From contig NZ_JACGWS010000023.1 in NCBI RefSeq assembly GCF_014397005.1, forward strand, positions 1 to 54,277: a DNA stretch of 54,277 nt, written 5' to 3'. Made by a program: the position numbers and the translations under genes. Of the stretch, positions 1,706 to 22,801 are shown piece by piece (the stretch's first letter is position 1; each line of letters starts with the position of its first letter). The notes beneath the pieces were generated by a model. The model ran no database searches. It was not told the DNA's origin and saw nothing but the letters and a program-made list of their open reading frames with translations. The DNA comes from Kordia aestuariivivens (lineage in GTDB: Bacteria; Bacteroidota; Bacteroidia; Flavobacteriales; Flavobacteriaceae).

Positions 1706-1756
1706 AATTCTTTACGTTTAAATTAATTAATGTAATAATGGTTTAGGTATGATAAA

Positions 1757-1786
1757 AATTCCAGCCAACCGAAATTGGCTGGAATT
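1757..1786 (-). terminator. Terminator after the metalloprotease gene
   Basis: Stem AATTCCAGCCAA paired with TTGGCTGGAATT around a 6-base loop. Read on the minus strand it is followed by a T run, 22 bases after the stop of the M12-type protease. Confidence 0.75.
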
Positions 1787-1808
1787 CTCTTGCATTATTT
1801 ATATATGT

Positions 1809-4800: not shown

Positions 4801-5213
4801 CCTCTAACAATTCCTCGATAATGCTTTGCAATATCATTTTTAGAATGCTCTTTTCCAGAAAGTGTGGTAACTGTGTAATCGTAAAAAGATTGAGAAACTT
4901 CTACAAGATCAACAACCACTGAGAAGTTTGTCTCTAATGGAAGTGTCATTGAAATCGCTCTCTTTTTCTGATTGGCTAAGGAATTTTGGAAAAAATCCTG
5001 ATTGTACATAAATAAGGAAACTTTTGAAGCGTCCTTGAGACCTGTTAATTGCTCTTTGTTTTCCTGTAGTTGTATAAGACTACTAACATCTGTAAATGAT
5101 GTTCCTTTTGCCTTAGTATTGACTACTTCTGCAGCCACAGGTTTTAACGTTTGAGCAACCATGAATGTCATTCCAAATAATAGGAGCAACATTGAAACAT
5201 AAACTTTTTTCAT
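1809..5213 (-). CDS. Secreted M12-type (reprolysin-like) zinc metalloprotease with T9SS sorting domain
   Basis: A 1134-aa secreted protease. Residues 1-20 are a signal peptide (MKKVYVSMLLLLFGMTFMVA), followed by a propeptide of about 180 residues. The catalytic domain carries the extended zinc motif HEIGHNLGSRH near residue 354 and a Met-turn (TIMSYFDSYG) about 55 residues later. Beyond it are Cys-rich and beta-rich modules, one resembling a jelly-roll binding domain (about 555-720) and a fibronectin-like segment (about 955-1040). Residues from about 1050 form a type A T9SS C-terminal domain (ISPNPNDGNMNIEISG ... KKVIIE). The protein is expected outside the cell. It diverges from the ECF sigma gene, with 165 bp of shared upstream DNA, so the sigma/anti-sigma pair may control it. 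Family assignment is strong; the target is unknown. Confidence 0.9.
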   Translation of the reverse strand: MKKVYVSMLLLLFGMTFMVAQTLKPVAAEVVNTKAKGTSFTDVSSLIQLQENKEQLTGLKDASKVSLFMYNQDFFQNSLANQKKRAISMTLPLETNFSVVVDLVEVSQSFYDYTVTTLSGKEHSKNDIAKHYRGIVRGKESTSIVAVSFFNSQMMGTVSIEGKGSYNIGKLRNKDSHIIFNSENVQNESFACDEVDAGGGDALPYTVGDIMTSNPSDSMDKCIKIYFEVDYDIYQHFSSNTADVENFVIGLFNQTATIYLNESVNVEISEIFVWDTQDPYTSSSSVTNLFTFRTTRPAYNGDLAHLLTYRSSSAGGVAFVNGLCSENASYGHTSLFPSFASYPTYSRQVKVVTHEIGHNLGSRHTHDCVWNGNSTQIDDYGSVLPSGTPNNPQPCFTAPGITNVTPTIMSYFDSYGHGTFPMSNGFGTQPGNVIRNTVANADCIDECEGNCTAEVSYTINGAPITSPGSYTIEECLFQCVTVAANGDVSSVTYTSNGNVTSPSAGVFCVQPGGTNSFTVDIAGIDTCDDPFNETVTINVTPCTHENCCDADNNLLSNGNFDNASCTGSTAFGDGCVVDWTAVAGSPSLHGVDRFAWMWSYGGGGEAIEANFNFEEGVTYDICFRLLTDDRNTGDPNVANNATVNLVATNSPGNVTATPNGQIIFQNTMGDYLNNWQNVTLKFTPDADYTHLWIFPFMANASDGTSQSEMSIDDIVISTCCDDEPEIVPYWQHPNCPEVVCTADQWPIHVLSADGTPITSAGGVIISWDNLDTAVNENILADWIYASPGEHWQATITYPNGCEYIITYLEDCCDEDIFIKVLECPSDDQLLTYEASIKERMEKSIESKAVSQLQDELDLLHAYMNARVDGEDCDPCELGIVFIELVDANGDPIDLSIYDTFSWSDGGFGAMRAFPLPMAGPVCFTATNIEYGKECVYQDCFFYECEDPCGVPTNLQYDCRRANLTWTGDATQTYTVEVNWDDPACCRGGANPTSSRWEVTGTSFQLPFINQSGCFSWRVGVKCKDEIVWSDLACGSCDTRPQEPGPGTSVKTSAKISPNPNDGNMNIEISGNDKTPFTVKVYRFDGVLIKTFNENRIENQSITISWNGKSVLSKGMYFFVITTDKETITKKVIIE

Positions 5214-5378: not shown

Positions 5379-5936
5379 ATGTCAAATGATGCTTATTTTA
5401 TTGAAGGTCTTCGCTCTGGAAAAGAGACTGTATTGCAAGAAATATATGATCAGTTTTTTTCAAAGGTTAAAACGTTTGTTTTACAAAACAAAGGGACTAT
5501 TACTGATGCCGAAGATGTTTTTCACAACGCCCTAATACAATTGTATATCCGTCTAAAAAACAGGCAACTAGTAATTAAATCTTCTTTTGAAGCGTATCTT
5601 TTTACTACTTGCAAAAACCTTTGGCGAAGAGAATTAAATAAAAAACGGGTAACAAAATCCAATGTTGTTGAACTTGAAGACAAAGAAACAGAAAATGCTT
5701 ATGCATTGCTAGAGCAAGAACAGTGGGAATTGTATATTGAAAAGTTTCAATTACTCTCTGAAAATTGCAGAAAAGTATTGACATTATTGTTTGGTGGTAC
5801 TTCGTATGAAGAAATCGTGGAAACGTTTTCGTATGCATCAAAAGTAGTTGCTAGACAACGTGTTTTTAAATGTAAAGCTAAATTAACCAAGCTAATTAAG
5901 GAAGACACTAAGTTTTCCAAAATAAAGAAATTATGA
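5379..5936 (+). CDS. ECF-type RNA polymerase sigma factor
   Basis: A 185-aa sigma-70 family protein of extracytoplasmic-function type. Region 2 (about residues 20-85) contains DAEDVFHNALIQLYIR and the -10-binding stretch with FTTCKNLWRRELNKK. Region 4 (about 120-175) has the helix-turn-helix LLFGGTSYEEIVETF...RVFKCKAKL. Its stop overlaps the start of the next gene by 4 bases (ATGA), a sign of translational coupling to a cognate anti-sigma protein. It diverges from the secreted metalloprotease and may drive it. Length and domain order are normal for the family. Confidence 0.88.
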   Translation: MSNDAYFIEGLRSGKETVLQEIYDQFFSKVKTFVLQNKGTITDAEDVFHNALIQLYIRLKNRQLVIKSSFEAYLFTTCKNLWRRELNKKRVTKSNVVELEDKETENAYALLEQEQWELYIEKFQLLSENCRKVLTLLFGGTSYEEIVETFSYASKVVARQRVFKCKAKLTKLIKEDTKFSKIKKL

Positions 5937-6748
5937 GTTTTGATGACCAAACCTATTCCCGAATTGCGTCATATTTGAACAATGAGATGAATGAAGCTGA
6001 AAAAGCTGCCTTTGAAGTCCAACTTGAAAATGACGCCGAACTTGCTTCGTTTGTTGATACGTTTTCGACACTAGAAGGTGTGTACAACGAAGACAAATGG
6101 ACTGTAAAAAGTAATGCAACAATTGCAGAAGTGAAAGCACTTGCCAATGCGTTTAGAGCCGATGATGTTGCTGATGTATCTAAAAAGATTCGTGCTATTC
6201 AGCAACACACAACAAATCAAGAAACAACTTCAAGAAGCAGAAAGTCTTACTTCTATTATATTTCATCTGCTGTTGCGATCGCCGCAGTATGTACGTTGTT
6301 TTATTTCTCGTTTATGCAATCTATCACCGCAGATGATGCGTTTGAGCAATACCACGATTGGGCGAGTTTACCTTCGTTTCAAACAAAAAGTGACACCAAC
6401 AACAATCTAGCGAAAGCGAGCACTTTATTTCAAGAAGAAAAATACCAAGAAGCTTTATCAATTTTTACAACATACGCACAAGAAAGTGCCACTTACAATC
6501 CGCAAATACAATTGTATATCGGAGTTTCACACATGGAACTTGAGAATTATCAAGAAGCTCTTCAAACATTTAACCAATTACAAAACAGTAATACCGTAGA
6601 TGATCATAAAGCATATTGGTACACAGCTTTGACGTATTTGAAACAAAATGATGCTGAAAATGCTAAAAAAGTATTGAAGACTTTAGTTGAAAATCCAAGC
6701 AATTATAATTACGAAAAAGCCAAAGAATTGCTCAAAAAGTTAAAATAA
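5933..6748 (+). CDS. Membrane anti-sigma-like protein with periplasmic TPR domain
   Basis: A 271-aa protein coupled by a 4-bp overlap to the ECF sigma gene. Residues 1-75 resemble the helical N-terminus of Bacteroidota anti-sigma factors (YSRIASYLNNEMNEAEKAAFE). One transmembrane helix lies at about 103-125 (YFYYISSAVAIAAVCTLFYF). The C-terminal half (about 155-271) has two or three tetratricopeptide-like helical pairs (FQEEKYQEALSIFTTYA, MELENYQEALQTFNQL, LKQNDAENAKKVLKTL). The expected topology puts the sigma-binding part in the cytoplasm and the TPR sensor in the periplasm. I infer the anti-sigma role from position and topology; the TPR assignment is clear. Confidence 0.75.
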   Translation: MSFDDQTYSRIASYLNNEMNEAEKAAFEVQLENDAELASFVDTFSTLEGVYNEDKWTVKSNATIAEVKALANAFRADDVADVSKKIRAIQQHTTNQETTSRSRKSYFYYISSAVAIAAVCTLFYFSFMQSITADDAFEQYHDWASLPSFQTKSDTNNNLAKASTLFQEEKYQEALSIFTTYAQESATYNPQIQLYIGVSHMELENYQEALQTFNQLQNSNTVDDHKAYWYTALTYLKQNDAENAKKVLKTLVENPSNYNYEKAKELLKKLK

Positions 6749-6884
6749 TACAAAAATCTTCCTCATTTTTATAAATTTCGATAACATATTCGGTTTTTTA
6801 TAGGTGATACTCATCCATACACTTGTAAGAAAATAAAAAAAGCCTTTAATTTGAGTAGACCAAAACTTGAATTACTTAAAAATT

Positions 6885-8102
6885 ATGAATAAAGAGCTCT
6901 TAGAAAAAAAGTTAAAAGAAATTGATCAAATTATTAAATCGAAATATAAAGAAGAAACGCAAATAGGAGTTTTAGCAGGACTCGCTGGTGTTTCGTTATT
7001 TCAGTTTTATTATTCCAAATATCTTGATATTGACGATCACGCTGATATTGGTGTAGAAATGTTAACCGATTGTATTGATAAAATTAATGAAGGATATAGT
7101 TATCCAACATTCTGTACAGGAATTGCAGGAGCAGGTTGGGTTTTAGATCATTTGGAGCAAGAAGAATTTATGGATGCTGATAATGACGATTTACTTCCTG
7201 AGTTAGACCAGTATATTCACACATTTATGGTGACTGATATGAAAAATGGAAATTACGATTTCCTTCATGGTGCCATTGGATATGCTTTTTACTTCTTAAA
7301 TCGATACCGAAATACAAAATCAGACGAATTAAAAGCTAAATACGTCACGTTCCTTAATGAATTTATGGAATTGCTAGAAGGCTTGTCTGAAGATGATGGC
7401 GATGGAAAAACTAAATGGGAATCTGAATTAAGCATCGAAACCAAAGAAAGAGGATACAATTTGAGTCTTTCTCATGGAATGTCGAGCATTGTCGGAATCT
7501 TAACAAAACTCCATGTATACGACGATTTCAAAGCGAAAGCTGAGCCAATGTTAAAAGGCGCTATCAAATACATCATGAGTCATAAAAGTCCTGAAGAAAA
7601 GCCATACTCTATCTTTCCAAGTTGGGTAACTGATGAAAAAGAAGCTGAAAACGGGCAAAGCCGTTTGGCATGGTGTTATGGTGATCTTGGTGTTGGGATG
7701 CGTTTTTGGTATGCTTCAAAAACATTAAATGATAAAGAATTAGGAGCTACTGCACTTGAAGTACTAAAACATTCTGCTGCAAGAATCAAGCAAGAAGATA
7801 GTTTGGTAAGAGATGCGGGAGTTTGTCATGGTTCGTACGGAAATGCACAAATGTTCTTACGTATGTACCGAGAAACTGGTGAACAAGAATTTAAAGATGC
7901 TTTTGAATTTTGGATGCAGGACGGAATCGACAGAGGAATCCATGAAGATGGATATGCAGGATACATGCAATGGAAAGGTGTTGATAAAAGTTGGGCGCCA
8001 GAAACATCACTGCTCGAAGGAATTGCAGGAATTGGACTTTCCATCCTTGATTATTTAGCAGATTACAATACAAATTGGGATGAATGTTTAATGATAAGTT
8101 AA
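6885..8102 (+). CDS. LanC-like lanthionine synthetase (cyclase)
   Basis: A 405-aa LanC family zinc enzyme, which adds Cys thiols to dehydrated Ser/Thr to close (methyl)lanthionine rings. The zinc ligands are visible as Cys264 (AWCYGDLG), Cys314 and His315 (VCHGSYGNA). The repeated GxxG/HG elements of the alpha-toroid also appear (LSHGMSSIVGIL, LEGIAGIGLSIL). I start at ATG 6885 (MNKELLEKKL); a longer reading from TTG 6867 adds six residues with no family support. It is the first gene of the lanthipeptide operon, 10 bp before the LanB gene. The length is normal for stand-alone LanC. Confidence 0.9.
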   Translation: MNKELLEKKLKEIDQIIKSKYKEETQIGVLAGLAGVSLFQFYYSKYLDIDDHADIGVEMLTDCIDKINEGYSYPTFCTGIAGAGWVLDHLEQEEFMDADNDDLLPELDQYIHTFMVTDMKNGNYDFLHGAIGYAFYFLNRYRNTKSDELKAKYVTFLNEFMELLEGLSEDDGDGKTKWESELSIETKERGYNLSLSHGMSSIVGILTKLHVYDDFKAKAEPMLKGAIKYIMSHKSPEEKPYSIFPSWVTDEKEAENGQSRLAWCYGDLGVGMRFWYASKTLNDKELGATALEVLKHSAARIKQEDSLVRDAGVCHGSYGNAQMFLRMYRETGEQEFKDAFEFWMQDGIDRGIHEDGYAGYMQWKGVDKSWAPETSLLEGIAGIGLSILDYLADYNTNWDECLMIS

Positions 8103-8112: not shown

Positions 8113-10368
8113 ATGAGTAAAAATCCATATAAGAATTTTTCAAAATATATATTACGAACACCGCTTTTCTCATTCACTTCCTATCAAGAATTGACAGCCA
8201 AAAAAGAAATCTCAGAAGAAGATTTTAGAACGGTTTGTACAAATCCTATTGTGAGAGAAGCATTATTTTTAGCTTCGCCTTCTTTATTTGAAGAAATAGA
8301 CAGATGGCTCAACGGCGAAATGGACGATGCTAAAAAAGAACAAAAACTACGTTATTCTATCTTAAAATATATCTCAAGAATGTCTTCCAGGTGTACACCA
8401 TTTGGATTATTTGCAGGATGTTCGGTAGGTGAATTTGGCGAAGAAACAGATATCAAACTCAAAGGTTCGGATCAAAATAAGCGTCATACGCGACTAGATA
8501 TGAATTATTTGGTAGCACTTTCGCAAGATTTGATAACGAATAAAAAAATTAGAGAGCAATTATTATTCTTTCCAAACTCAAGTATTTATAAAGCCGGACC
8601 GCAATTACGTTATATAGAATATAAATATTTTAACAGTAGAAGACATCACCATATTGTTGCGGTTGATGATACGGAATACTTAGCCATCGTTTTAGAGAAA
8701 GCTTCTCATGGAGCTTCTTTATCACAACTAGCAGCTTTATTAGTTGATGATGAAATTTCAATGGAAGAAGCTACAGAGTTCATTGAAGAATTAGTATCAA
8801 GTCAGTTGCTAATTAGTGAACTAGAACCTTCGGTTTCTGGTCCTGAATTCTTAGATCAAATTTGTAATGTATTGGAACGCTTGCAAGGTGTTGAAGATAT
8901 ATTGGCAGCGTTGAAAGAAGCCGATAAAAAAATTACTAAAATTGATCAATCTATTGGGAATAATCCAAAAGTATACTTAGAATTAAGTGAATTTTTACAG
9001 CAATTAGATACTGATTTTGAGTTGAAGTTTATGTTCCAAACCGATATGGTGTTGGAAAACACAAAAAATACACTAAGTCAAACTGTTGTTGATGACATTC
9101 AAAAAGGATATGCATTATTAAACCGATTGACGTTTCCACAATCAACAACAACGCTTACGAAATTTAGAGATGCTTTTCACGAACGTTTTGAAGAACGTGA
9201 AGTTCCGCTTTCGACGGCTTTAGATGTTGAAATTGGAATTGGCTACAAGCAAGATCAAGGTGCTGGAGACGTAAATCCGTTAGTAGATAACATTATGATT
9301 CCAGGAAGGCAATCTAAAAATCCTGTCATGGAAATTCGTTGGTCTTCTATCAATTCATACTTTCAAGATAAACTGATTGAAGCTTTTAAAAACGACGATT
9401 ATATTATTAAGATTGATGCAGCCGATTTTAAAGATTACGACCTCAACTGGAACGATCTTCCAGATACAATGTCGTGCATGATTGAAATTTTAGAAGATAA
9501 AGACGGCGCACAGAAAATTAAGTTTAGCGGTGGTGGCGGATCTAGTGCAGCAAACTTATTAGGTCGTTTCTGTCATGGTGATCCTGAACTTTTCAAGTAT
9601 ACACAAGAAATGGTGGATATGGAAGCAGAGATGAACAAAGACAAAATCTTAGCCGAAATTGTGCATCTTCCAGAATCGAGAGTTGGAAATATTTTAATGC
9701 GTCCAGATTTACGTAAATACGAAATTCCGTATTTGGCAAAATCGATCAAAGACGAAGAAGATCAATTGCCAATTGACGATTTAATGGTTTCTGTAAAAAA
9801 CCACAGCAAAGTATTATTGCGTTCTAAAAAAAATAACAAAGAAATCGTTCCGCATTTAACCAATGCACATAACTATTCTGCAAATTCATTGCCTATTTAC
9901 CACTTCTTATCAGACATGCAAACGCAAGGAATTAGAAGTGGCGTTGGTTTCGGATTAGGACCTTTTGCCAATGAATATCCGTTTTTGCCACGTGTTGAGT
10001 TTAATAACTTAATCTTACACGATGCTACTTGGAACTTAAAGAAAAGTCACATAGAGCCATTAATAAAAAGTAAAAATGACAATGATAAACTAACGGAAGC
10101 GATACAAGCATTGCGCGATAGCTTAAAAATTCCGCAATATGTAATGCTTGCCGATGGTGATAATGAATTGCTTATCAACTTTGGAAACCTTACTTCTACA
10201 CGCATGTTACTAGACACTGTAAGCAAGCGAGGCTCGTTTAAACTTACCGAATTCCTATTTAGCGAACGCGGTGTTGTAAAAGAAGGAGATGAATATTACA
10301 CAAACCAAGTAGTAGTTTCATTTTATAATGAAGAAAAATTAACTCAAAGCAAGCAGCCCAATGAATAA
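8113..10368 (+). CDS. Lantibiotic dehydratase, glutamylation domain (split LanB, N part)
   Basis: A 751-aa protein matching the N-terminal (glutamyl-transfer) part of class I lantibiotic dehydratases. These use Glu-tRNA to glutamylate Ser/Thr of the precursor before elimination. The hallmark SRMSSRCTPFGLFAGC is at about residues 88-103. The C-terminal elimination domain of canonical LanB (about 1000 aa) is missing here and is encoded by the next gene, which overlaps by 8 bp. This split arrangement is known from the Bacteroidota lanthipeptide pinensin. It sits between LanC and LanB-C in a tight operon. Confidence in family is high; the leader recognised is probably the LxLxKxxIxxL motif of the downstream peptides. 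Confidence 0.9.
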   Translation: MSKNPYKNFSKYILRTPLFSFTSYQELTAKKEISEEDFRTVCTNPIVREALFLASPSLFEEIDRWLNGEMDDAKKEQKLRYSILKYISRMSSRCTPFGLFAGCSVGEFGEETDIKLKGSDQNKRHTRLDMNYLVALSQDLITNKKIREQLLFFPNSSIYKAGPQLRYIEYKYFNSRRHHHIVAVDDTEYLAIVLEKASHGASLSQLAALLVDDEISMEEATEFIEELVSSQLLISELEPSVSGPEFLDQICNVLERLQGVEDILAALKEADKKITKIDQSIGNNPKVYLELSEFLQQLDTDFELKFMFQTDMVLENTKNTLSQTVVDDIQKGYALLNRLTFPQSTTTLTKFRDAFHERFEEREVPLSTALDVEIGIGYKQDQGAGDVNPLVDNIMIPGRQSKNPVMEIRWSSINSYFQDKLIEAFKNDDYIIKIDAADFKDYDLNWNDLPDTMSCMIEILEDKDGAQKIKFSGGGGSSAANLLGRFCHGDPELFKYTQEMVDMEAEMNKDKILAEIVHLPESRVGNILMRPDLRKYEIPYLAKSIKDEEDQLPIDDLMVSVKNHSKVLLRSKKNNKEIVPHLTNAHNYSANSLPIYHFLSDMQTQGIRSGVGFGLGPFANEYPFLPRVEFNNLILHDATWNLKKSHIEPLIKSKNDNDKLTEAIQALRDSLKIPQYVMLADGDNELLINFGNLTSTRMLLDTVSKRGSFKLTEFLFSERGVVKEGDEYYTNQVVVSFYNEEKLTQSKQPNE

Positions 10369-11269
10369 CGAAATACAAAGAAATTTTATTTTAGGAGATA
10401 GTTGGCTGTATTATAAAATTTATACAGGACCAAAAACCTCAGATGCTGTGCTAACGGAAATTATAAAACCCATAGCAGAGCAGCTTATAGAACACGGAAT
10501 TATTGACAAATGGTTCTTTATACGATATGCCGATCCAAAACATCATGTGAGAGTTCGTTTTCACTATACAAAGCCTGAAAATATTGGAATGATCATTAAC
10601 GGATTGTATCCAAAATTTAAAGAATTTATCGATCAAGATTTAATTTATAAAATTCAGATTGATACGTATCAACGAGAAATTGAACGTTACGGAATCAACA
10701 CCATGGAATTGGGTGAAGATTTGTTTTACCATGATAGTAAAATGATGGTAGACTTCATTGACATGATTGAAGGTGATGAAGGTGAAGAATTGCGTTGGTT
10801 ATTTTCTATCAGAGCCATGGACTCACATTTATCAAGTTATAAATATACCGATGATGAGAAGTTGGAGCTCATGGATCGTTTAAAAACTGGATTCGGAAAT
10901 GAATTTGGAATGTCGCGCCCGTTAAAAAAGCAGTTAGATGATAAATTTAGAGCGGAGCGTAAAAAAATTGAAGAATTTATGGTATTTACCGCTGAGGAAA
11001 ATCCAGATTACGAACCAATTTTAGACGTTTTAACCGAGAAAGAAGAAGGAATTGTAGATATTGCTGCTGCCATTTTAAAGCACAACGAAGACGGAACGTT
11101 AGTTATGCCGCTTAACGACCTTATGGGGAGTTACATGCACATGCTCATGAATCGTTTATTCAAGTCTAAAAACCGTATTCACGAAATGGTGTGTTACGAT
11201 TTCTTATATCGCTATTACAAATCAATGATTGCGCGTAAAAAGCACATGAATAAAGCCAAGAAGAAATAG
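10361..11269 (+). CDS. Thiopeptide-type/LanB C-terminal elimination domain protein
   Basis: A 302-aa stand-alone elimination domain (SpaB_C/thiopeptide-type biosynthesis family), which removes glutamate from glutamylated Ser/Thr to give dehydroamino acids. The N-terminal signature GDSWLYYKIYTGPKTSD and FFIRYADPKHHVRVRF (about residues 10-60) is typical. The start overlaps the LanB-N gene by 8 bp, so both are probably made together and act as one bipartite dehydratase. It is followed after 88 bp by the first precursor peptide gene. The length is normal for this domain. Confidence 0.9.
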   Translation: MNNEIQRNFILGDSWLYYKIYTGPKTSDAVLTEIIKPIAEQLIEHGIIDKWFFIRYADPKHHVRVRFHYTKPENIGMIINGLYPKFKEFIDQDLIYKIQIDTYQREIERYGINTMELGEDLFYHDSKMMVDFIDMIEGDEGEELRWLFSIRAMDSHLSSYKYTDDEKLELMDRLKTGFGNEFGMSRPLKKQLDDKFRAERKKIEEFMVFTAEENPDYEPILDVLTEKEEGIVDIAAAILKHNEDGTLVMPLNDLMGSYMHMLMNRLFKSKNRIHEMVCYDFLYRYYKSMIARKKHMNKAKKK

Positions 11270-11546: not shown

Positions 11547-11614
11547 TTACAACCCTTTTGTACTAAAGGAATCGTCTTTTACCGCGCATATTTTTTTTCT
11601 ACACATAAAACCGT

Positions 11615-11622
11615 TATACTTG
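11615..11622 (+). promoter_or_regulatory. Putative -7 box of regulator R1
   Basis: TATACTTG, one mismatch from the Bacteroidota -7 consensus TAnnTTTG, lies 31 bases before the ATG at 11653. It is conserved in the paralogous promoter at 13885-13892. No clear -33 TTG is seen. Confidence 0.4.
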
Positions 11623-11652
11623 TATAAACCGATTCGCCCAAACATTTCAATA

Positions 11653-13386
11653 ATGCGTCTTAAAAAACCATCTTTTTCAACATTTTATTTTACATCAGTT
11701 GCGATTCTATTTTTATTTTCGCTTTCGCTGAATGCACAAACCGATTCTTTACAAGGAAAATCGTATAAAGAGTTGATTAAATTATATCAAACTGTTTTAT
11801 TTTCAAATCCATCTGATGCAACAGTATACGCAACAGAAGCAAAACGTGTTGCCCAACAAAAAAACGATCAAGGAAAAGTAGCAGAAAGTTTATATTGCAT
11901 TGCATTTTCAACCTATTACCTTGCTGAATACGATGCGTCTTTACATGCTATCGAGCAATCCATACAGATTTCAAAAAAGCGAAACAACTACTATTTGCTA
12001 TTTGAAAATTATAATCTTAAAGGAAATATTCTTTCCGATTTGGAAAAAGAATTTGAAGCTCTTGACGAATATCTTTTAGCTAAAAAATATGCGGATTTAA
12101 CAGGCAAACCTATTCACTCCATTACCGTATCTGTTAATATTGCTCACCTTAAAAAATCGCATAATAATCCCCAAGAAGCACTTGTTATTTTAAAAGAAAG
12201 CTTAGCACTACTTGAAAAAGTAGCTGATGGAAATAGAGAAAAATTGAGGTACAAGCGGATTATATTAATGAACATTGCAGATACGTATCTAAGAATGAAA
12301 AACATTACTGATGCGGAGAACTACAATAATTTAGCAATGGAATCGTGTGTTGGAGCACAAACTAATCTCGCTTGCCTAATTATCTTAATGAATGATGGCA
12401 TTATAAATTATCAAAAGAAAAACTACGATAAAACGATTATCATTTCTAAAAAAGTAGAAAAAGGTTTTATAGAGCTTAAAAATGAAAATCAACTTGTAAC
12501 ACCTTATTTTTACTTGGGAAAAAGCTATTTTCAGAAAGAGGAATATACAGAAACCATTACCTATCTTGAAAAAGCGTTGGCTATTGTCAGTGAAAATAAA
12601 ATGGCCTTTTCTGATCAAAAAGAAGTGCATCAACTATTACGTAAATCATATATCAAAGTTGGTGATGAAAAGAAGGCAGAAGAACATTTTAACTATTATG
12701 ACCAAATTGACCGCAAAGATGACAGTATTAATACTCAACTAAATAATACGATTTATAAAAAATATGAAATTGACCCACTAAAAGAAGAAATAACTTCTTT
12801 AGGAAATGACAATCTTAAACAACAAAAACGAGCAAAATACCTATATGCTTTATTAGGTGTATTGGCGATCACTTTTATAGGATTTTTTATCTGGTTTAAA
12901 CAAAAGCAAAAACAGAATAAAAAACGTTTTCAAGAATTATTAGTAACTATTGAAAAGCTAGAACAACCTAAAGAAAAAATAACTTCAGATGTGTTGGCAA
13001 AAGAAAATTCCAATCCTGTAACGGATAAAAATGCACTACAAATTTTAAAAGATTTAGAAATTTTTGAAGAAAAAGAATTGTATTTACGACAAGATTGCAC
13101 GTTGAGTTATGTTGCCAAAAAACTAAAAACAAACACTTCCTATTTATCAAACGTAATTAATACCTATAAAGAAAAATCATTTAAAGCATACCTATCAGAA
13201 TTGCGTATCAATGCAGCATTAATTAAACTTAAAAATGACAGTAAATTACGTTCATATACTATCAAAGCGATTGCGAAAGAATTTGGTTTTAAGCGTTCAG
13301 AAACCTTTTCAAGAGCATTTAAATCCCAAACAAGCATGTACCCGTCATATTACATCAAAAACCTTCAAAATCAGAAAGATACATAA
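11653..13386 (+). CDS. Periplasmic-TPR / transmembrane / AraC-type regulator R1
   Basis: A 577-aa one-component membrane regulator. I start at ATG 11653 because it gives a clean signal peptide (MRLKKPSFSTFYFTSVAIL ... SLNAQ); the longer TTG reading from 11620 runs through the promoter. Residues ~35-370 form tetratricopeptide helices (periplasmic sensor). A transmembrane helix spans about 394-416 (YLYALLGVLAITFIGFFIWF) and is followed by a basic linker. The C-terminal ~100 residues are an AraC/XylS double helix-turn-helix (LSYVAKKLKTNTSYLSNVIN ... AIAKEFGFKRSETFSRAFKS). This topology would let an envelope or peptide signal act directly on transcription. The gene is followed by precursor P1. 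The paralog R2 has exactly the same length. The ligand is unknown. Confidence 0.85.
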   Translation: MRLKKPSFSTFYFTSVAILFLFSLSLNAQTDSLQGKSYKELIKLYQTVLFSNPSDATVYATEAKRVAQQKNDQGKVAESLYCIAFSTYYLAEYDASLHAIEQSIQISKKRNNYYLLFENYNLKGNILSDLEKEFEALDEYLLAKKYADLTGKPIHSITVSVNIAHLKKSHNNPQEALVILKESLALLEKVADGNREKLRYKRIILMNIADTYLRMKNITDAENYNNLAMESCVGAQTNLACLIILMNDGIINYQKKNYDKTIIISKKVEKGFIELKNENQLVTPYFYLGKSYFQKEEYTETITYLEKALAIVSENKMAFSDQKEVHQLLRKSYIKVGDEKKAEEHFNYYDQIDRKDDSINTQLNNTIYKKYEIDPLKEEITSLGNDNLKQQKRAKYLYALLGVLAITFIGFFIWFKQKQKQNKKRFQELLVTIEKLEQPKEKITSDVLAKENSNPVTDKNALQILKDLEIFEEKELYLRQDCTLSYVAKKLKTNTSYLSNVINTYKEKSFKAYLSELRINAALIKLKNDSKLRSYTIKAIAKEFGFKRSETFSRAFKSQTSMYPSYYIKNLQNQKDT

Positions 13387-13408
13387 GTGATGTTTTATAA
13401 AATGTCAC
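13387..13408. promoter_or_regulatory. Candidate operator upstream of P1
   Basis: Directly after the R1 stop, a 22-bp imperfect palindrome reads GTGATG-TTTTATAAAA-TGTCAC. An equivalent (GTGACG-TTTTATAAAA-TATCAG) follows R2 at 15657-15678. Both lie about 70 bases upstream of a precursor start. It could bind the AraC domain of R1/R2; conservation may also just reflect the recent duplication. Confidence 0.4.
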
Positions 13409-13476
13409 AAGCATCGTTAAGAAGTTAGCTATTTTTTTTAGATATTTAGATTGTTAAACTAAAACAAATAATTATT

Positions 13477-13698
13477 ATGAAATCACTAAAATTAAAAAAA
13501 GTAAAAATTTCAAAAATAAATAATCTTCATACAATATTTGGAGGAGGAGATACAGTAGGAGCAAACCCTCAAAGGACTGTAACAATTGACGCTGCTTGTC
13601 TCAAGACAAGAGATGCTGATGATACAGATTGTAACACGGTAACCAATAATGGGACATTAAAAACCGCTGGCACACCTACTAATACTGGAATTGAGTAA
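13477..13698 (+). CDS. Lanthipeptide-type precursor P1 (73 aa)
   Basis: A 73-aa peptide. The leader MKSLKLKKVKISKINNLHTI carries the LxLxKxxIxxx motif and ends in FGGG (residues 21-24), a double-Gly-type site for the C39 exporter. The core of about 49 residues has many Thr and two Cys (AACLKT at ~42; TDCNTVTN at ~52). The pair CLK ... (D)C(N)TVTN is shared with P2 (ECIK ... ECDTVTN), so this part of the core is conserved while the rest differs. The gene lies 90 bp after regulator R1 and is followed by a terminator at 13724-13758. The modification state is inferred from the neighbouring LanB/LanC genes; with only two Cys, at most two rings would form. Confidence 0.75.
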   Translation: MKSLKLKKVKISKINNLHTIFGGGDTVGANPQRTVTIDAACLKTRDADDTDCNTVTNNGTLKTAGTPTNTGIE

Positions 13699-13723
13699 TT
13701 AAAACAATCAAGCCAATATACTG

Positions 13724-13758
13724 AAAAGCCCTCATATTATAAATGAAGGCTTTTTTTT
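13724..13758 (+). terminator. Terminator after precursor P1
   Basis: Stem AGCCcTCAT with ATGAaGGCT followed by T8, 25 bases after the P1 stop. Confidence 0.75.
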
Positions 13759-13764
13759 GTTAAT

Positions 13765-13815
13765 TGTCCCGTCCTGAAATAAGTCGATTTTGTGTCAACT
13801 TATTTCAGAACGACA
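13765..13815. mobile_element. Inverted-repeat remnant, probably insertion-sequence ends
   Basis: The motif CCTGAAATAAGT (13773-13784) faces ACTTATTTCAG (13798-13808) across 13 bases, with outer TGTC/GACA at both edges. It resembles two terminal inverted repeats of an insertion sequence brought together with the body lost, or a tiny MITE. It lies exactly between the two duplicated regulator-peptide modules. No transposase is present. The family cannot be named from this fragment. Confidence 0.45.
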
Positions 13816-13884
13816 CATGCAGCCCTTTTATACTAGATGAATTGTCTTTTACCGCGCTTATTTTTTTTCTACACATAAAACCGC

Positions 13885-13892
13885 TATACTTG
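13885..13892 (+). promoter_or_regulatory. Putative -7 box of regulator R2
   Basis: TATACTTG at the same distance (31 bases before ATG 13923) as in the R1 promoter. The surrounding 60 bases are nearly identical to those of R1. Confidence 0.4.
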
Positions 13893-13922
13893 TATAAACC
13901 GATTCGCCCAAACATTTCAATA

Positions 13923-15656
13923 ATGCGTCTTAAAAAACCATTTTTTTCAACATTTTATTTTACATCCGTTGCGATTCTATTTTTATGTTCACTTTCGCTA
14001 AATGCACAAACCGATTCTTTACAGGGGAAATCGTATGAGGAGTTAGTGACGCTTTTCGATGCAACCATACGTGAAGATGCTTCTGAGTCTAGATCGTATG
14101 CCACAAAAGCATACCAACTAGCCAAACAGGAAAATGATTTAGAAAAAATGATGCGAGCAAAATACAATATTGCGCGCTCCAATTATGCTATGGCTGAGTA
14201 TACAACATCTATTAAAAATCTTGATGAGGTTATTCATATTGCCACAGGGCTAAAAAATAATTTATTACTATTCAGAAGTTATAACTTAAAAGGAAACAAT
14301 CTATGTGAGCTAAATAAAAACAATGAAGCTTTTGACGAATATTTGGAAGCTAGAGAATATGCTAAACTTACAAAAAATCCTATACACATATCTTCGGTTG
14401 CTATTAATATTGTACTCATAAAAAAAATACACAAAGATTATCAAGAATGCATTGATATCTTATTAGAAAATTTACAGCTTTTAAAAAATTTAGATGATCC
14501 GAGTGAAGAAAAAATATATAATGAACGAATTATTTTATTGCAGCTTGCTGACACATATCTTAGAATTAAACAACCTCAAAAAGCTGAAGATTACAATAAA
14601 CTAGCCTTAGCAATAACTCCTAAGGAAGAATTTCCAAATACTTACTACTTTATTTTAATGAATGATGCCATTATTCAATATCAAATAAAGAACCACCAAC
14701 AAAGTATAGACATCTGTAGAGAAATAGAAGGTTATTATATTAGCACAAATGAAACTTCTAGATTAATGACACCTTATCAATACATAGGAAAAAATTATTA
14801 TGAGCTAAAAGAATTTCCCAAAGCAACTAACTATTTAGAAAAAACTATTGCTATTTCTGATCAGTTCAAATTAGATTTTTCCGAACGAAAAGAAATATAT
14901 CATTTTTTACAGTTGTCACATACACAAATAGGAAATAAAGAAAAAGCATCAGAATATTCAATTAAACAGTATGAATTAGATGAAAAAAATGACAGCCTTG
15001 ATATTTCATTAAATAACAGAATCAATAAAGAGCATGATATTATTCCGCTTCAAGAAGAAATAACTTCTTTAGGGGATGACAATCAAAAACAAAAAAAACG
15101 AGCAAAATATTTATATGCAATATTAGGCGTGTTGGGTATTACTTTGATAGGATTTTTCATTTGGTTTAAGCAAAAACAAAAACTGAATAAAAAGCGTTTT
15201 CAAGAATTATTAGTAACGATTAAAAAGTTAGAACAACCGAAAGAAAAAACAATGCTTGAAGTAATTGCAACAGAATCTTCCAATCCTATAACCGACGAAA
15301 ATGCCTTGCAAATTTTAAAAGATTTGGGGAAATTTGAAGAAAAAAAATTATACTTACGACAAGACTGCACACTAGGGTATGTTGCCAAAAAACTAAAAAC
15401 AAATACTTCTTATTTATCAAACGTCATCAACACCTACAAAGAAAAATCATTCAAAACATACCTTTCAGAGTTGCGCATCAATGCAGCATTGATTCAACTT
15501 AAAAATGATTCTAAATTACGTTCGTATACCATTAAAGCCATTGCAGAAGAGTTTGGTTTTAAGCGCTCAGAAACCTTTTCAAGAGCCTTTAAATCACAAA
15601 CAGATATGTACCCATCACATTACATCAAAAGACTTGAAAATCAGAAAGATACATAA
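13923..15656 (+). CDS. Periplasmic-TPR / transmembrane / AraC-type regulator R2
   Basis: A 577-aa paralog of R1, starting at ATG 13923 (MRLKKPFFSTFYF...). A longer upstream reading from 13764 would run through the insertion-sequence remnant and promoter and is rejected. The domains match R1: signal peptide to about residue 28, TPR sensor to about 370, transmembrane helix at about 394-416, and AraC double HTH at the C-terminus (AIAEEFGFKRSETFSRAFKS). By eye, the first ~40 and last ~200 residues are nearly identical to R1, while the TPR region is strongly diverged. So the DNA target is probably shared and the sensed signal probably differs. It is followed by precursor P2. Confidence 0.85.
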   Translation: MRLKKPFFSTFYFTSVAILFLCSLSLNAQTDSLQGKSYEELVTLFDATIREDASESRSYATKAYQLAKQENDLEKMMRAKYNIARSNYAMAEYTTSIKNLDEVIHIATGLKNNLLLFRSYNLKGNNLCELNKNNEAFDEYLEAREYAKLTKNPIHISSVAINIVLIKKIHKDYQECIDILLENLQLLKNLDDPSEEKIYNERIILLQLADTYLRIKQPQKAEDYNKLALAITPKEEFPNTYYFILMNDAIIQYQIKNHQQSIDICREIEGYYISTNETSRLMTPYQYIGKNYYELKEFPKATNYLEKTIAISDQFKLDFSERKEIYHFLQLSHTQIGNKEKASEYSIKQYELDEKNDSLDISLNNRINKEHDIIPLQEEITSLGDDNQKQKKRAKYLYAILGVLGITLIGFFIWFKQKQKLNKKRFQELLVTIKKLEQPKEKTMLEVIATESSNPITDENALQILKDLGKFEEKKLYLRQDCTLGYVAKKLKTNTSYLSNVINTYKEKSFKTYLSELRINAALIQLKNDSKLRSYTIKAIAEEFGFKRSETFSRAFKSQTDMYPSHYIKRLENQKDT

Positions 15657-15678
15657 GTGACGTTTTATAAAATATCAG
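15657..15678. promoter_or_regulatory. Candidate operator upstream of P2
   Basis: GTGACG-TTTTATAAAA-TATCAG, the counterpart of the palindrome at 13387-13408, directly after the R2 stop codon. Confidence 0.35.
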
Positions 15679-15745
15679 TAGTATCTTTTAAATATTCGCT
15701 TTTTTTTTCAGACATTTATATTGTTAAATTAAAACAAGAATTATT

Positions 15746-15970
15746 ATGAAATCACTAAAACTGAGAAAAGTAAAAATTTCTAAAATAGGAAATCCCCATA
15801 TCCTATTTGGAGGAGCAACCAATGGTTGCCCAACGACGACCCCACCGCCTATATCGGTGGATGAAGAATGTATCAAGTCATTACGTAATGAATGTGATAC
15901 CGTAACTAATACACTCCCTACTCAACGAACGAGTGCTATTGGAGGTGATAATACTGACAGTGGTGATTAA
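15746..15970 (+). CDS. Lanthipeptide-type precursor P2 (74 aa)
   Basis: A 74-aa peptide whose leader (MKSLKLRKVKISKIGNPHIL then FGGA) is nearly the same as that of P1. The core has three Cys (NGCPTTTPPP, EECIKS, NECDTVTN) and many Thr/Ser, with the P1-like CIK ... ECDTVTN element. It follows regulator R2 by 89 bp, as P1 follows R1, and ends at a terminator (15993-16027). The pairing suggests that each regulator controls, or is fed by, its own peptide. Whether the product is an antimicrobial or a signal cannot be told from sequence. Confidence 0.75.
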   Translation: MKSLKLRKVKISKIGNPHILFGGATNGCPTTTPPPISVDEECIKSLRNECDTVTNTLPTQRTSAIGGDNTDSGD

Positions 15971-16801: not shown

Positions 16802-18178
16802 TTATTTTCTGCTGAATACTTCTCGCAATTGATAGAAAATTCGTTGCATTACGGTTAATTCTTCCACCACAATTTCTGCGGTTCCTTCCATTTCTTGTTT
16901 AAAATCGATCGGTTTTTCAAAAGAACTATTTAAAGAATCTACTTTTAAATAGGCAACATACATTGCAGGTCCACCTTGTGTACTCAACTGCGGAACACCC
17001 GATATATTGATGATTTCTCCTGATAAACTTCCCCATTCTTGATACGGATAACTATCAAGCTTGATCAATACACTTTGTCCTATTTTTATTTTTCCCGAAT
17101 TCTGTACTGGAAATGATACTCTTCCTATAATTCCTTGTATTTCATCTGGAATTACGGTAAACAAATCTTGTCCAATCGTTACATTTTGGTATTGTGACCA
17201 AATATCAAATACAGTAACTTCTCCTTTGATAGGCGATTTCAATAAAAATTGTTGTTCCCACTGTAAAATTTGATTTTCTAAATCTTGCTTGGCTTGTTCT
17301 AAGTTTTGATCGGTTGATATTGCCGAACTTTTATCACCTACAGAAGCTTGACGCAAACTGTTTTGTAACCCAAGTATTGAGTTACGATCATTTTCTATAC
17401 TAGATAGTAAACCTTCATACGCACGTTGTGAACTTAAGTATAAATTTTCCTGATCTTTATATTCACGTTCAGAAACACTTTGGTTGGCAAACAATCGCTT
17501 AAACTTTTCGTATCTCTTTTTTGAGTTTGCTAATTCTGTTTTGTAAAACCCTAGTTGATTTTGACTGTTTTGTAATCGATTCCGAACTCTACTTAATTGC
17601 AAACGTATGTTTGTTGCTTGATTTTTGTCTTCGTTGAAGATTGCATAATTCAAATACGTTAAGTATTGTGCTCTAAACGCATTGTAAACCGATTGTACTT
17701 GCCCCAATTTTAATTTTGAAGGGAATGTGTCATTCAACGAATCAAAGTCGTTTTTATTAGGTATAAAATCGGCTAACTTTTTTTTGAGTAATTGTACATC
17801 GTCAAAGTTGGCTGTATTTTCAATAACCGCCAACACTTGATCTGCTTCTACTTTTTGACCCGCTTCTACAAAAATACTCGTCAGTTTCCCAGAAGCTTTC
17901 GCCGTTAAATGTGCTGGTGGATTTTCAGAAGTAATAGTCACTCGCGCTGGAATGATATCATTGTAACTAAGCATAGCCGAACCCGCAATGAAAATAACAA
18001 TAATTATTAATACTACTGAGATTCCCCATTGGATTACCCAATTTGGTGCCTGCCCCAAGATTTCCTTCACCTGATCCGATCTTTCGTCGAGATCATTGAT
18101 CTTTCTGCGTAGTTCTTGCGCTTTCTTCTCCTTCTTCTCTTCCTTTTTTCCCTTTTTTTCTTCTTCTTTCTTCGCCAT
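16802..18178 (-). CDS. HlyD-family periplasmic adaptor of the peptide exporter
   Basis: A 458-aa membrane-fusion protein. A highly charged N-terminus (Lys/Glu-rich, ~30 residues) precedes one transmembrane helix at about 47-72 (WVIQWGISVVLIIIVIFIAG). A biotinyl-lipoyl-like half follows (LTAKASGKLTSIFVEAGQKV), then a long coiled-coil hairpin (~140-310), the second lipoyl half (LKSPIKGEVTVFD) and a beta-barrel. It links the inner-membrane ABC transporter to an outer-membrane channel, which is not encoded here. It starts one base after the stop of the C39 ABC gene, so both form one operon, convergent with the precursor genes. Confidence 0.9.
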   Translation of the reverse strand: MAKKEEEKKGKKEEKKEKKAQELRRKINDLDERSDQVKEILGQAPNWVIQWGISVVLIIIVIFIAGSAMLSYNDIIPARVTITSENPPAHLTAKASGKLTSIFVEAGQKVEADQVLAVIENTANFDDVQLLKKKLADFIPNKNDFDSLNDTFPSKLKLGQVQSVYNAFRAQYLTYLNYAIFNEDKNQATNIRLQLSRVRNRLQNSQNQLGFYKTELANSKKRYEKFKRLFANQSVSEREYKDQENLYLSSQRAYEGLLSSIENDRNSILGLQNSLRQASVGDKSSAISTDQNLEQAKQDLENQILQWEQQFLLKSPIKGEVTVFDIWSQYQNVTIGQDLFTVIPDEIQGIIGRVSFPVQNSGKIKIGQSVLIKLDSYPYQEWGSLSGEIINISGVPQLSTQGGPAMYVAYLKVDSLNSSFEKPIDFKQEMEGTAEIVVEELTVMQRIFYQLREVFSRK

Positions 18179-18179: not shown

Positions 18180-20390
18180 TTAGTTTCCTAGCTCTAATTG
18201 ATTCTTTACTAATGTATAATATGCTCCACGTTTAGCGGTCAATTCTTCGTGACTTCCTAGTTCAATGATTTTACCTTTGTCTAGTACAATAATTTGATCT
18301 GCATTTTTTACCGTACTCAAACGGTGTGCTACCACAACTACTGTTTTCCCTTTATAGAATTCCTTTAGGTTTTCCATAATTACTTTTTCATTATTTGCAT
18401 CTAAAGCACTCGTTGCTTCATCAAAGAAAATATACTTTGGATCTTTGTATACCGAACGTGCAATTAAAATACGTTGCTTCTGTCCTCCAGAAACATTTAC
18501 ACCACTTGACCCAATTTTTGTATTGTACCCTGAAGGTAATTCTTCAATGAAATCTTCAATATTGGCAACTTTCACCGCATGAATCAAACGTTGCTTGTCT
18601 ATAATTCCTTCAGAATCAGATTCCGTTATGTTTCTGGCAATTGTATCTCCAAATAAGAAACCATCTTGCATTACTGATCCACACGATTTACGCCAAACTT
18701 TGGTACTGATATCTTTTAAATTGCTACTTTTTCCAATAGAAATTGAACCTTCGTTAAAGTCATAGAATTTAAGTAATAACTTAATTAACGTCGTTTTTCC
18801 ACTACCACTGGCACCAACAATGGCGGTTACTTTTCCTTCCGGAATGTCCACATTCAAATCGTCTAAGATTAATGGCGAACTTTTTCCTCCATAACGGAAA
18901 CTTGCATTGGTTAATGTAATTGTTTTGTCTTCTGGAAGTTCTTTAATATTATCTTCAAAACGATCTTCTTCATCATCTTTATTGTGAATTTCAGATAAAC
19001 GCTCTAAACTAATTTTTGCATCTTGTCCAGATTGAATGAACGTAATAAAGTTGTTGATTGGTAAGTTTAACTGCCCAATGATATATTGCACCGAAAGCAT
19101 CATCCCCAACGTAAATAATGGATCGTCAATTACAGCAGTTGCCGCGATAAAGGTTATTAAGATATTTTTTAATTCGTTAATAAATCGTCCACCTGTATTT
19201 TGTGTTTGCGAAAGTGTCAATCCTTTAATGGAGATTTTGAACAATCGTACTTGAATTGCTTCCCATTCCCAACGTCTTCTACGTTCCGAACCGTTTAGTT
19301 TAATTTCCTGCATTCCAGAAATTAATTGGTATAAACTACTTTGGTTGTCCGAAGACTGATCGAATCGTTTGTAATCGAGTTCGGCTCTCTTTTTCATGAA
19401 CAGTAACGTCCAACCGATATATAAGGCAGATCCAATAAAGAATACTGCGAATATTTGCATGTTGTAGTAGGCTAATACAGCTCCAAAAATAACCATGTTA
19501 AAAGCAGAAAACAGTGTATTTAATGTTGTAGACGACAAGAAACTCTGAATTCTGTTGTGATCGTAAATACGCTGAATAATATCTCCTGTATTTTTAGAAT
19601 CGAAAAATGCAATAGGCAATCGCATCAACTTGATTAAGAAATCGGAAATCAGGTTGATGTTTATTCGACTCGTCATGTGGAGCAGAATCCAACCTCGAAT
19701 CAATTCTACGGTAGTTTGCGATATAAATAGCGTTAATTGGGCAATTAATATCAAGAATACAAAGTTTTTATTCTCATAATTAATACCATAATCGACCACG
19801 GACTGCGTTAAGAACGGAAATATAAGTTGCAGCAAACTCCCGACCAGTAGTCCTAATATTAACTGAACTATATATTTTTTATACGGTTTGAAATACCAGA
19901 ATAGGAACTTAAAGCCATATTCTTTCTTTTCTTCTTTCTCTAGTTCATAAAACTCTGGCGTTGGCTCTAATAATAATAAATAGCCTTCTGCATTTTCAGG
20001 ATCGGCACTACTACCTATCCAACCTTTTATGAAATCTGCTTTTGAATATTTTACAAGTCCGTGCGCAGGATCTGCAACGTATACTGTGTTTCTTCTTATT
20101 TTATAGACTACAACGAAGTGACGCTGTCTCCAGTGTGCAATACATGGATATGGAACTTCATCTACCAAGGTTTTAAAATCAACACTCACGGCTAGTGTGT
20201 GCAATCCTATATCTTCAGCAGCTTCGGCAATTCCTCCTAAAGAAACTCCTTCCCTGGTAATGTTTGCTTTCTTTCGTAGAAAGTCAATTGTATATGCACG
20301 TCCAAAATGTTTTGCAACCATACGTAAACATGTAGGCCCGCAATCCATTTGATCTAATTGTCTATAAAAAGGAAATTCTCTTTTTACCAT
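18180..20390 (-). CDS. C39-peptidase-containing ABC exporter (leader-cleaving)
   Basis: A 736-aa bifunctional bacteriocin-type exporter. The N-terminal peptidase C39 domain has Cys17 (QMDCGPTCLRM), His91 (HWRQRHFVVVY) and Asp107 (YVADPAHG). It cleaves leaders after Gly-Gly, which fits all five precursors nearby. Six transmembrane segments follow (~165-440), then the ABC domain with Walker A GASGSGKTTL, signature VSGGQKQR, Walker B IFFDEATSALD and the switch His in VVAHRLSTV. No separate LanP or LanT gene is seen, so this protein probably does both jobs. It is first in the operon, with the HlyD gene next. Confidence 0.93.
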   Translation of the reverse strand: MVKREFPFYRQLDQMDCGPTCLRMVAKHFGRAYTIDFLRKKANITREGVSLGGIAEAAEDIGLHTLAVSVDFKTLVDEVPYPCIAHWRQRHFVVVYKIRRNTVYVADPAHGLVKYSKADFIKGWIGSSADPENAEGYLLLLEPTPEFYELEKEEKKEYGFKFLFWYFKPYKKYIVQLILGLLVGSLLQLIFPFLTQSVVDYGINYENKNFVFLILIAQLTLFISQTTVELIRGWILLHMTSRININLISDFLIKLMRLPIAFFDSKNTGDIIQRIYDHNRIQSFLSSTTLNTLFSAFNMVIFGAVLAYYNMQIFAVFFIGSALYIGWTLLFMKKRAELDYKRFDQSSDNQSSLYQLISGMQEIKLNGSERRRRWEWEAIQVRLFKISIKGLTLSQTQNTGGRFINELKNILITFIAATAVIDDPLFTLGMMLSVQYIIGQLNLPINNFITFIQSGQDAKISLERLSEIHNKDDEEDRFEDNIKELPEDKTITLTNASFRYGGKSSPLILDDLNVDIPEGKVTAIVGASGSGKTTLIKLLLKFYDFNEGSISIGKSSNLKDISTKVWRKSCGSVMQDGFLFGDTIARNITESDSEGIIDKQRLIHAVKVANIEDFIEELPSGYNTKIGSSGVNVSGGQKQRILIARSVYKDPKYIFFDEATSALDANNEKVIMENLKEFYKGKTVVVVAHRLSTVKNADQIIVLDKGKIIELGSHEELTAKRGAYYTLVKNQLELGN

Positions 20391-21999: not shown

Positions 22000-22785
22000 T
22001 TAAATTGCAGAAACTTTTGTATTAGTTACGTTGGCTGACACACATAATTTTATCAATTTACAATCCATTAATTTAGCAGGATTGTTCGGGTCTTTTAGTT
22101 GTTTATTTTCAATACTAAAACCTATTTCACTCATACCTTCAAGTTTAATTCTACTTTCATTAGGAAAACTATTGTATTTATCAGTTGGAATGATACAAAC
22201 TAACTCAAAATCTTTGCCAGTCGGTTCGTGTAAATAATTGAAAACTTTTCTTGGATTTTCAATTTGCCACATTCCTCTAATTCTCAGATTTGTTATTCCT
22301 AAAGGGTCGACTTGATTAACTCTTCCTAATTCTTTAGTGTCAGCGAAAACAACATCTGGAATAGTTTTTATTCCATCCGAAATTGTTGTTTTAATTCTTT
22401 GATATGTTTCGTGTTTAGCTGCATAAGAATTACCATAAACCATCCACAATGATTTTATATTTGTATCAGTTGTATGTCCAACGCAATAAATTAAATCTTT
22501 GACTGTCCAATTTTCACATTCCTTACATTCCTTTGTGATCATTGGACTCGTTTGTCTTAAATCAGTTTTTGGATAGCTACTGTTTAAAGCTAAGCTTGTA
22601 TTTGCACTTTGCGTTTTTTTTACTTCAATCGCATCTCCTCCTTTTATCATAATATCAGGTGGATTATTTTGAGAACCCAACCAAGAAAATTTTTGATTAA
22701 AAGTCTGCATCTTCTGTAATTCATCCGTTATTCCGAAGGTTCCAGCAAAAGCATCTTTAATATAACTTTCAAGAGCTTCACCCAT
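22000..22785 (-). CDS. NgoPII-like type II restriction endonuclease
   Basis: A 261-aa protein that I recognise as NgoPII-like (family cutter of GGCC) from NNMGEALESYIKDAFAGTFG and the PD-(D/E)xK core PPDIMIKGGDAIEVKK (~residues 42-57). Family members usually have about 20 more N-terminal residues. Here an in-frame TAA lies 8 codons before the ATG, and the short upstream reading (IKNRTNN) looks like the family sequence, so the N-terminus may be lost. It is the last cistron of a minus-strand operon and follows the 170-aa gene by 16 bp. The operon's methyltransferase is almost wholly deleted, so the host would need this enzyme to be inactive or its sites protected otherwise. Specificity is inferred. 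Confidence 0.7.
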   Translation of the reverse strand: MGEALESYIKDAFAGTFGITDELQKMQTFNQKFSWLGSQNNPPDIMIKGGDAIEVKKTQSANTSLALNSSYPKTDLRQTSPMITKECKECENWTVKDLIYCVGHTTDTNIKSLWMVYGNSYAAKHETYQRIKTTISDGIKTIPDVVFADTKELGRVNQVDPLGITNLRIRGMWQIENPRKVFNYLHEPTGKDFELVCIIPTDKYNSFPNESRIKLEGMSEIGFSIENKQLKDPNNPAKLMDCKLIKLCVSANVTNTKVSAI

Positions 22786-22801
22786 ATTATTTGTTCTATT
22801 T

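Follow-up and report, generated by a model that had tools for sequence, protein, structure and literature searches.

Peptide pheromones are well known in Gram-positive bacteria, where ComC-ComDE, BlpC-BlpRH and nisin NisRK are two-component circuits that work with double-glycine or lantibiotic peptides. Membrane-anchored one-component regulators such as ToxR and CadC, for their part, combine a periplasmic sensor, a single transmembrane (TM) segment and a cytoplasmic DNA-binding domain. Receptors of the RRNPP family, by the criteria given in the accessible part of PMC10075063, are intracellular proteins of 250-500 amino acids (aa) with peptide-binding tetratricopeptide repeats (TPRs) and an adjacent propeptide that has a Sec signal or is of the SHP/PrgQ type. 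Here we analyze contig NZ_JACGWS010000023.1 of Kordia aestuariivivens (54,277 nucleotides, the whole of contig C16 of a 5.46-Mb genome, hereafter the window), in which two genes for membrane TPR regulators with an AraC-type output, R1 and R2, are each followed by a gene for a small peptide with a double-glycine (GG) leader, P1 and P2. We put at about one half the probability that regulator-peptide pairs of this kind are one-component circuits with an RRNPP-like layout and a membrane-anchored periplasmic sensor.

The two modules lie on the forward strand. R1 (11653..13386) and R2 (13923..15656), delimited as open reading frames (ORFs), both encode proteins of 577 aa that align without gaps at 60% identity. 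P1 (13477..13698; 73 aa) begins 90 bp after R1 and P2 (15746..15970; 74 aa) begins 89 bp after R2. The DNA upstream of R1 (11550..11653) is repeated before R2 (13820..13923), where a count on the alignment gives 97 identities in 104 bp, the two regulator-peptide spacers can be aligned over their whole length, and the peptide leaders agree at 18 of 23 positions. Judged by these alignments, R1-P1 and R2-P2 are plainly a tandem duplication, as the preliminary description of this DNA had proposed in calling them tandem paralogous modules.

With regard to domain architecture, R1 and R2 contain the HTH_18 domain of AraC/XylS regulators (49.4 and 52.2 bits, respectively, against a Pfam cut-off of 33.6) and TPR_12, likewise above its cut-off in both. 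Hydropathy gives a hydrophobic N-terminus (residues 8-26) and a single further hydrophobic segment inside the protein (397-415), with a basic region just behind it. An AlphaFold model of the regulator, with a mean predicted local distance difference test score of 88.4, contains eight TPR hairpins from residue 38, a helix (339-437) crossing the membrane and the AraC domain. The parts of R1 can be placed at about 1-29 (hydrophobic N-terminus), 38-335 (TPR hairpins), 397-415 (membrane segment) and 488-569 (HTH_18); R2 was assigned by Pfam, hydropathy and its alignment with R1. The earlier assignment of a signal peptide, a periplasmic TPR sensor, one TM helix and a cytoplasmic AraC domain agrees with these results. 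A Foldseek search places LGN TPR domains from complexes with peptides at the top, and peptide-bound Rap proteins rank 30, 31, 33 and 45; for the modeled structure this shows a predicted fold of the peptide-binding kind and not kinship, because TPR arrays widely resemble each other.

As in the RRNPP systems of Firmicutes, a TPR receptor gene directly adjoins a small propeptide gene, the predicted repeats are of the peptide-binding type (TPR_12, eight hairpins in the model) and the predicted output is DNA-binding, as it is in many RRNPP proteins. R1 and R2 nevertheless exceed the RRNPP size range, carry a predicted signal peptide and one TM segment instead of being intracellular and end in an AraC-type HTH_18 domain, while the peptide has a GG-type leader, apparently in place of a Sec signal, and the host is Gram-negative. 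RRNPP membership was therefore rejected on length and predicted location. The modules resemble ComC-ComDE, BlpC-BlpRH and NisRK in placing a presumably exported leader peptide near a presumed receptor and in probable C39-ABC export, but here a single protein is the presumed sensor and DNA binder, with no histidine kinase or response regulator. The predicted topology is that of ToxR and CadC, from which R1 and R2 differ by their TPR sensor, their C-terminal AraC output and the dedicated peptide gene of each module. In Bacteroidales, clusters for ribosomally synthesized and post-translationally modified peptides (RiPPs) join GG precursors to peptidase-containing ABC transporters (PCATs), some with TPR or signal-transduction genes nearby, and a signaling role has been proposed for some of their products (PMC10352776, accessible part). 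The present locus shares the GG precursors with PCATs and differs from what that part of the source describes by the TPR-TM-AraC/peptide pair and its candidate operator. A literature search of open papers, with subscription papers and bioRxiv mostly outside it, returned no description of a TPR-AraC/GG-peptide pair of such layout in Bacteroidota.

The pairing extends well beyond R1 and R2. This genome holds 51 matches to R1, partial ones counted, and we considered the 34 TPR-TM-AraC proteins of at least 450 aa, a set that omits shorter AraC proteins and one 559-aa protein matching by the helix-turn-helix (HTH) alone. In 30 of the 34, a gene for a peptide with a GG-type leader lies 68-205 bp downstream in the same orientation; the peptide filter retrieved 28 of these genes and two, starting MREN, were added by inspection, all 30 being recovered in a later analysis. 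Twenty-four of the leaders end in GG, the other six in AG, GS or GK. One of the remaining four regulators has a peptide at 317 bp, and three have none within 700 bp. Among 111 control ORFs from nine random 20-kb stretches, a single one had a downstream peptide, by eye not a leader peptide, and under uniform placement the probability of 30 pairings in 34 is negligible given the 213 leader-peptide genes of this genome. Chance adjacency was consequently rejected, on the control genes and on the conservation of the pairing in Kordia and Aquimarina.

In ten further Kordia genomes we found 20-63 regulator matches each, the two best R1-like matches standing in tandem in three of the ten. A scan of named genomes yielded 62 loci, in which a peptide was counted when it lay within 210 bp downstream. 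By this measure every locus is paired in Kordia (32/32), Aquimarina (10/10), Nonlabens (1/1) and one Bacteroidia metagenome-assembled genome (MAG; 1/1), and none is in Chryseobacterium (0/14, with one peptide at 277 bp), Aequorivita (0/2), Moheibacter (0/1) and one Flavobacteriaceae MAG (0/1). The Nonlabens genome has no matches to leader model A3 at E<=0.01, though its regulator passes the peptide filter. On a tree of 95 regulators, the paired/unpaired label changes 7 times, against 20.1 in shuffles, none of 500 being as low. In a sample of the family, matches at E<=1e-100 occur in 28 of 199 genomes, with the best six candidates scored per genome; the best matches per genome outside Kordia number 26, and 11 of these have an adjoining peptide, one (L319) with a stop inside the regulator frame. 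Class-wide, 5 of the 149 genomes searched had a match at E<=1e-70 (best nine candidates scored per genome). The preliminary description had named lack of conservation in other genomes as fatal to its proposal; the association is conserved in Kordia, Aquimarina and these 11 best matches from other genera of the family.

This distribution also bears on the idea that adjacency reflects mere duplication or hitch-hiking of a gene pair with no functional link. R1 and R2, as tandem duplicates, would fit it well enough, but regulators only 24-40% identical to R1 are still paired with a peptide, the pairing persists across genera, and a positioned palindrome, described below, occurs also at unlinked leader-peptide genes, so that we consider this explanation very improbable.

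A candidate operator of the R1-P1 module, a 22-bp palindrome (13387..13408), directly follows the R1 stop codon, its centre preceding the P1 ATG by about 79 bp. Its counterpart directly after the R2 stop (15657..15678), centred some 78 bp ahead of the P2 ATG, has one mismatch to the pattern, for which 0.01 chance matches are expected in the window. When up to three mismatches are allowed, the pattern occurs at nine places in the genome, two of them in the R1 and R2 modules, and its reversed control at none. At four of the seven extra places (C5:130477, C11:19677, C9:94058 and C14:6236), the distance from the start of the palindrome to the ATG of an unlinked leader-peptide gene is 87-95 bp, a spacing like that in the two modules; the probability of four such sites by uniform placement is about 2e-11. 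A role of the palindrome as terminator of the regulator gene was rejected, since these four copies precede leader-peptide genes with no such regulator gene ahead of them. A perfect copy at C43:100575 (L165), upstream of a 359-aa ORF and without a leader peptide, may be a non-peptide target.

In the wider set of modules, 26 of 74 spacers contain a palindrome at p<=0.05 against shuffles. The centres of these significant palindromes lie 75-87 bp before the peptide ATG in 13 of 18 cases from Kordia and 88-101 bp before it in 6 of 8 from Aquimarina and the MAG, and their arms vary symmetrically between subfamilies (e.g., GTGA..TCAC, TTGA..TCAA). Over 66 modules the palindrome tracks the HTH slightly more than the TPR region (partial Mantel 0.23 vs 0.19). 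The 8-mer TTTATAAA, centred 70-95 bp before the ATG, stands in front of 24 of the 183 unlinked precursor genes and 9 of the 30 peptide genes in modules, and of none of 111 control genes. Its flanks there have a self-complementarity of 3.97 of 7, compared with 2.03 at random genomic sites and 3.07 at other upstream sites, and still 3.85 after removal of six genes with the R1 pattern.

Several results weigh against this interpretation. The R1 and R2 palindromes are individually not significant in the per-spacer shuffle (p=0.31 and p=0.64), belonging as they do to the 48 of 74 spacers that miss p<=0.05, and three of the seven extra sites lack a leader peptide. A general palindrome score separates precursors from control genes barely if at all (>=7 in 37/213 vs 8/53; >=8 in 20/213 vs 3/53), the separation being made only by the fixed 8-mer at its set position. 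The exact 8-mer is moreover absent from most precursors, and other operators must therefore exist. On balance, we think it likely from position and recurrence that the adjacent peptide is controlled through the palindrome, and probable, with a little less confidence, that unlinked precursors are controlled through the same operator.

The gene neighborhood would fit the biosynthesis of modified peptides. Upstream of R1, on the forward strand, lie a LanC-like cyclase (6867..8102; PF05147, 150.7 bits) and a split LanB, whose glutamylation part (8113..10368) is the sole PF04738 match genome-wide and whose elimination part follows at 10361..11269 (PF14028, 242.5 bits). Bacteroidota class I lanthipeptides have LxLxKx5L/GG leaders and C39 proteases (PMC7268733, accessible part), and the locus resembles them, as far as that part describes them, in uniting LanB/LanC with C39 and, by eye, in leader type. 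The short, basic leaders of P1 and P2 read LxLxKx5I followed by GG when compared by eye with that motif. Their cores contain two Cys each and several Thr, and LanB and LanC are present in the locus. Neither peptide, however, hits NF038153, the leader model for lanthipeptides, at a threshold as loose as E<=1, and we infer their modification only from the adjoining LanB/LanC.

A catalogue of precursors was compiled by searching with two leader models at the permissive threshold of E<=10, with the best 150 candidates scored for each and one of the two models built from module leaders; it comprises 217 distinct places, and genes may be missing. Of the places listed, 213 pass the checks (ATG, at most 130 aa, GG-like site, basic leader), with Cys in the core of 211 and at least two Cys in 205; only 33 of the 147 listed matches to NF038153 exceed the cut-off of that model. 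About 30 of these genes are linked to regulators and about 183 are unlinked, per one LanB genome-wide, which, like the missing NF038153 match of P1 and P2, sets the system apart from the Bacteroidota class I lanthipeptides above. Seven other named Kordia genomes also have one LanB each, with 77-132 leader matches at E<=0.01; at the same threshold, six Aquimarina genomes have 9-26 leader matches and 1-2 LanB, and Chryseobacterium genomes have 0-6 leader matches and 1-7 LanB matches. Prochlorosins, in which one enzyme serves 29 precursors (PMC12328550, accessible part), likewise join one modification enzyme to many dispersed precursors, as we suppose for Kordia. They differ by using LanM where Kordia has a class I LanB, and Kordia has about 213 leader-peptide genes, with links to regulators and an operator; a single LanB possibly serves far more precursors here than the 29 of prochlorosins.

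The main rival of the signaling reading is that the TPR domain senses some other cue (envelope state, or an algal or competitor molecule) and switches on adjacent and dispersed peptides that are effectors, e.g., antimicrobials. The pairing and operator data are explained equally well in this way, and the Cys in 211 of 213 Kordia cores and the location of an R1-type regulator no more than 2 kb from LanB in all seven named Kordia genomes (by coordinates, if contig numbering corresponds) speak in its favor. It does not by itself predict a regulator for each peptide, however, and 4 of the 11 partner cores outside Kordia (L315, L329, L331 and L338) are free of Cys and cannot carry lanthionine, which is therefore not general; a Cys-free core fits better with a signal than with a lanthipeptide product. 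We regard this rival as a serious possibility, though less probable than not. The same data qualify the term RiPP-based signaling pair used in the preliminary description: local control gains support from the palindrome recurring before unlinked precursors, whereas the term as a whole, with its presumed sensing, export and modification, exceeds the evidence, the more so in view of the Cys-free cores. Its further epithet, self-contained, proved too narrow, as about 30 modules share one LanB and two C39-ABC transporters and the operator also precedes unlinked genes.

What favors a peptide ligand is how regulators and peptides diverge. R1 and R2 are 93% identical in the signal peptide, 86% in the TM segment and 91% in the HTH, but 42% in the TPR region, and P1 and P2 have close leaders and diverged cores, a pattern that would be expected if TPR and core were matched to each other. 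Across 74 modules, the distances between cores follow those between TPR regions (partial Mantel 0.36) more than those between HTH domains (0.22). In line with this notion, some modules (L110, L116 and L142) have a second small peptide, 415-476 bp behind the regulator, in which the C-terminal half of the first core recurs and varies in step with it; over 29 pairs of second and first peptides, full-length duplicates included, the score within modules (42) exceeds that between modules (26; p=0.0002). Co-divergence of TPR and core is not predicted by the sensing of another cue alone. The regulators could also read peptides of other strains, in eavesdropping or competition sensing, with the own peptide as the answer. 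Many parallel, diverging receptors in one genome would suit this idea, but it does not require one-to-one pairing with an own peptide, and we judge it unlikely.

The case for the core as ligand has its own weaknesses. Synonymous divergence (dS) between R1 and R2 is uneven (TPR 1.37, HTH 0.78, signal peptide 0.16), so recombination is part of their divergence pattern, and the Mantel results are confounded by common descent. Furthermore, the inner TPR helices A are not more variable than the outer helices B in nine R1/R2-type proteins (entropy 0.74 vs 0.95), which does not favor a groove-specific ligand. We therefore place the proposal that the core is the ligand of its own regulator just short of an even chance.

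The findings presented here allow us to outline how a one-component peptide circuit of this kind could work. The regulator would be anchored in the inner membrane, exposing the TPR superhelix to the periplasm and the AraC domain to the cytoplasm. By binding, probably in dimeric form, to the palindrome that lies some 80 bp ahead of the neighboring peptide gene, it would switch that gene, presumably by activation rather than repression; the same operator would let it switch unlinked leader-peptide genes. A C39-ABC transporter would export the peptide and remove its leader, after possible modification, in Kordia, by the single LanB/LanC. The core, perhaps its C-terminal half, would then be the TPR ligand, the most conjectural of these steps; if so, each pair would form a private feedback channel, duplicating and diverging. 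The chief difficulty is topological: C39-ABC/HlyD exporters usually deliver to the outside, so the core would need to re-enter the periplasm. More tentatively still, inner-membrane TPR-AraC proteins may represent a third class of peptide-pheromone receptors beside cytosolic RRNPP proteins and membrane histidine kinases, in which exported GG-leader peptides would be read in the periplasm with direct action on DNA, tens of diverging channels per cell gating about 200 dispersed lanthipeptide-like precursors with one LanB.

Besides LanC and the split LanB, the neighbors of R1-P1 and R2-P2 include three further leader-peptide genes, all on the forward strand. P5 (11358..11492; 44 aa) scores 10 bits with NF038153, under the cut-off of 22; by eye, its leader is an exact fit to the LxLxKx5L and GG motif of the accessible part of PMC7268733, and its core is similar to the C-terminal half of that of P1. 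P6 (16140..16406) and P7 (16469..16717) are lanthipeptide-type precursors with 24 bits, above the cut-off, and 17.7 bits, under it. They are followed on the reverse strand by an HlyD-type export adaptor (16802..18178; PF13437) and a C39-peptidase ABC transporter (18180..20390; PF03412, PF00664 and PF00005), the candidate leader protease and exporter. Immediately upstream of LanC (5379-6748), an extracytoplasmic function (ECF)-type sigma factor gene precedes that of a TPR protein with a weak anti-sigma match, a pair that, by its position, may be a further control layer of the LanBC genes. A subtilase and a reprolysin-type metallopeptidase bearing a Por secretion tail are encoded beside the cluster (404-5213), and at 22000-23901 there is an NgoPII-type restriction endonuclease gene with a gene for a small HTH_3 protein close by. 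The second C39-ABC and HlyD cluster of the genome (locus L043, C1:570000-589900) also encodes two M23 peptidases, two subtilases and an AraC protein with HTH_18 that is only 244 aa long; a scan of nine ORFs in this cluster (C1:570281) revealed no modifying enzyme.

The shared operator before modules and unlinked peptide genes points to a large network of peptide control, perhaps of peptide signaling. Should the peptides prove to be ligands, about 30 private peptide channels would operate in one Kordia cell, which would offer a rich natural set for studying the duplication and divergence of receptor-ligand specificity. Irrespective of the ligand, the operator would provide a handle on the timing of expression of a very large, dispersed set of lanthipeptide-like genes.

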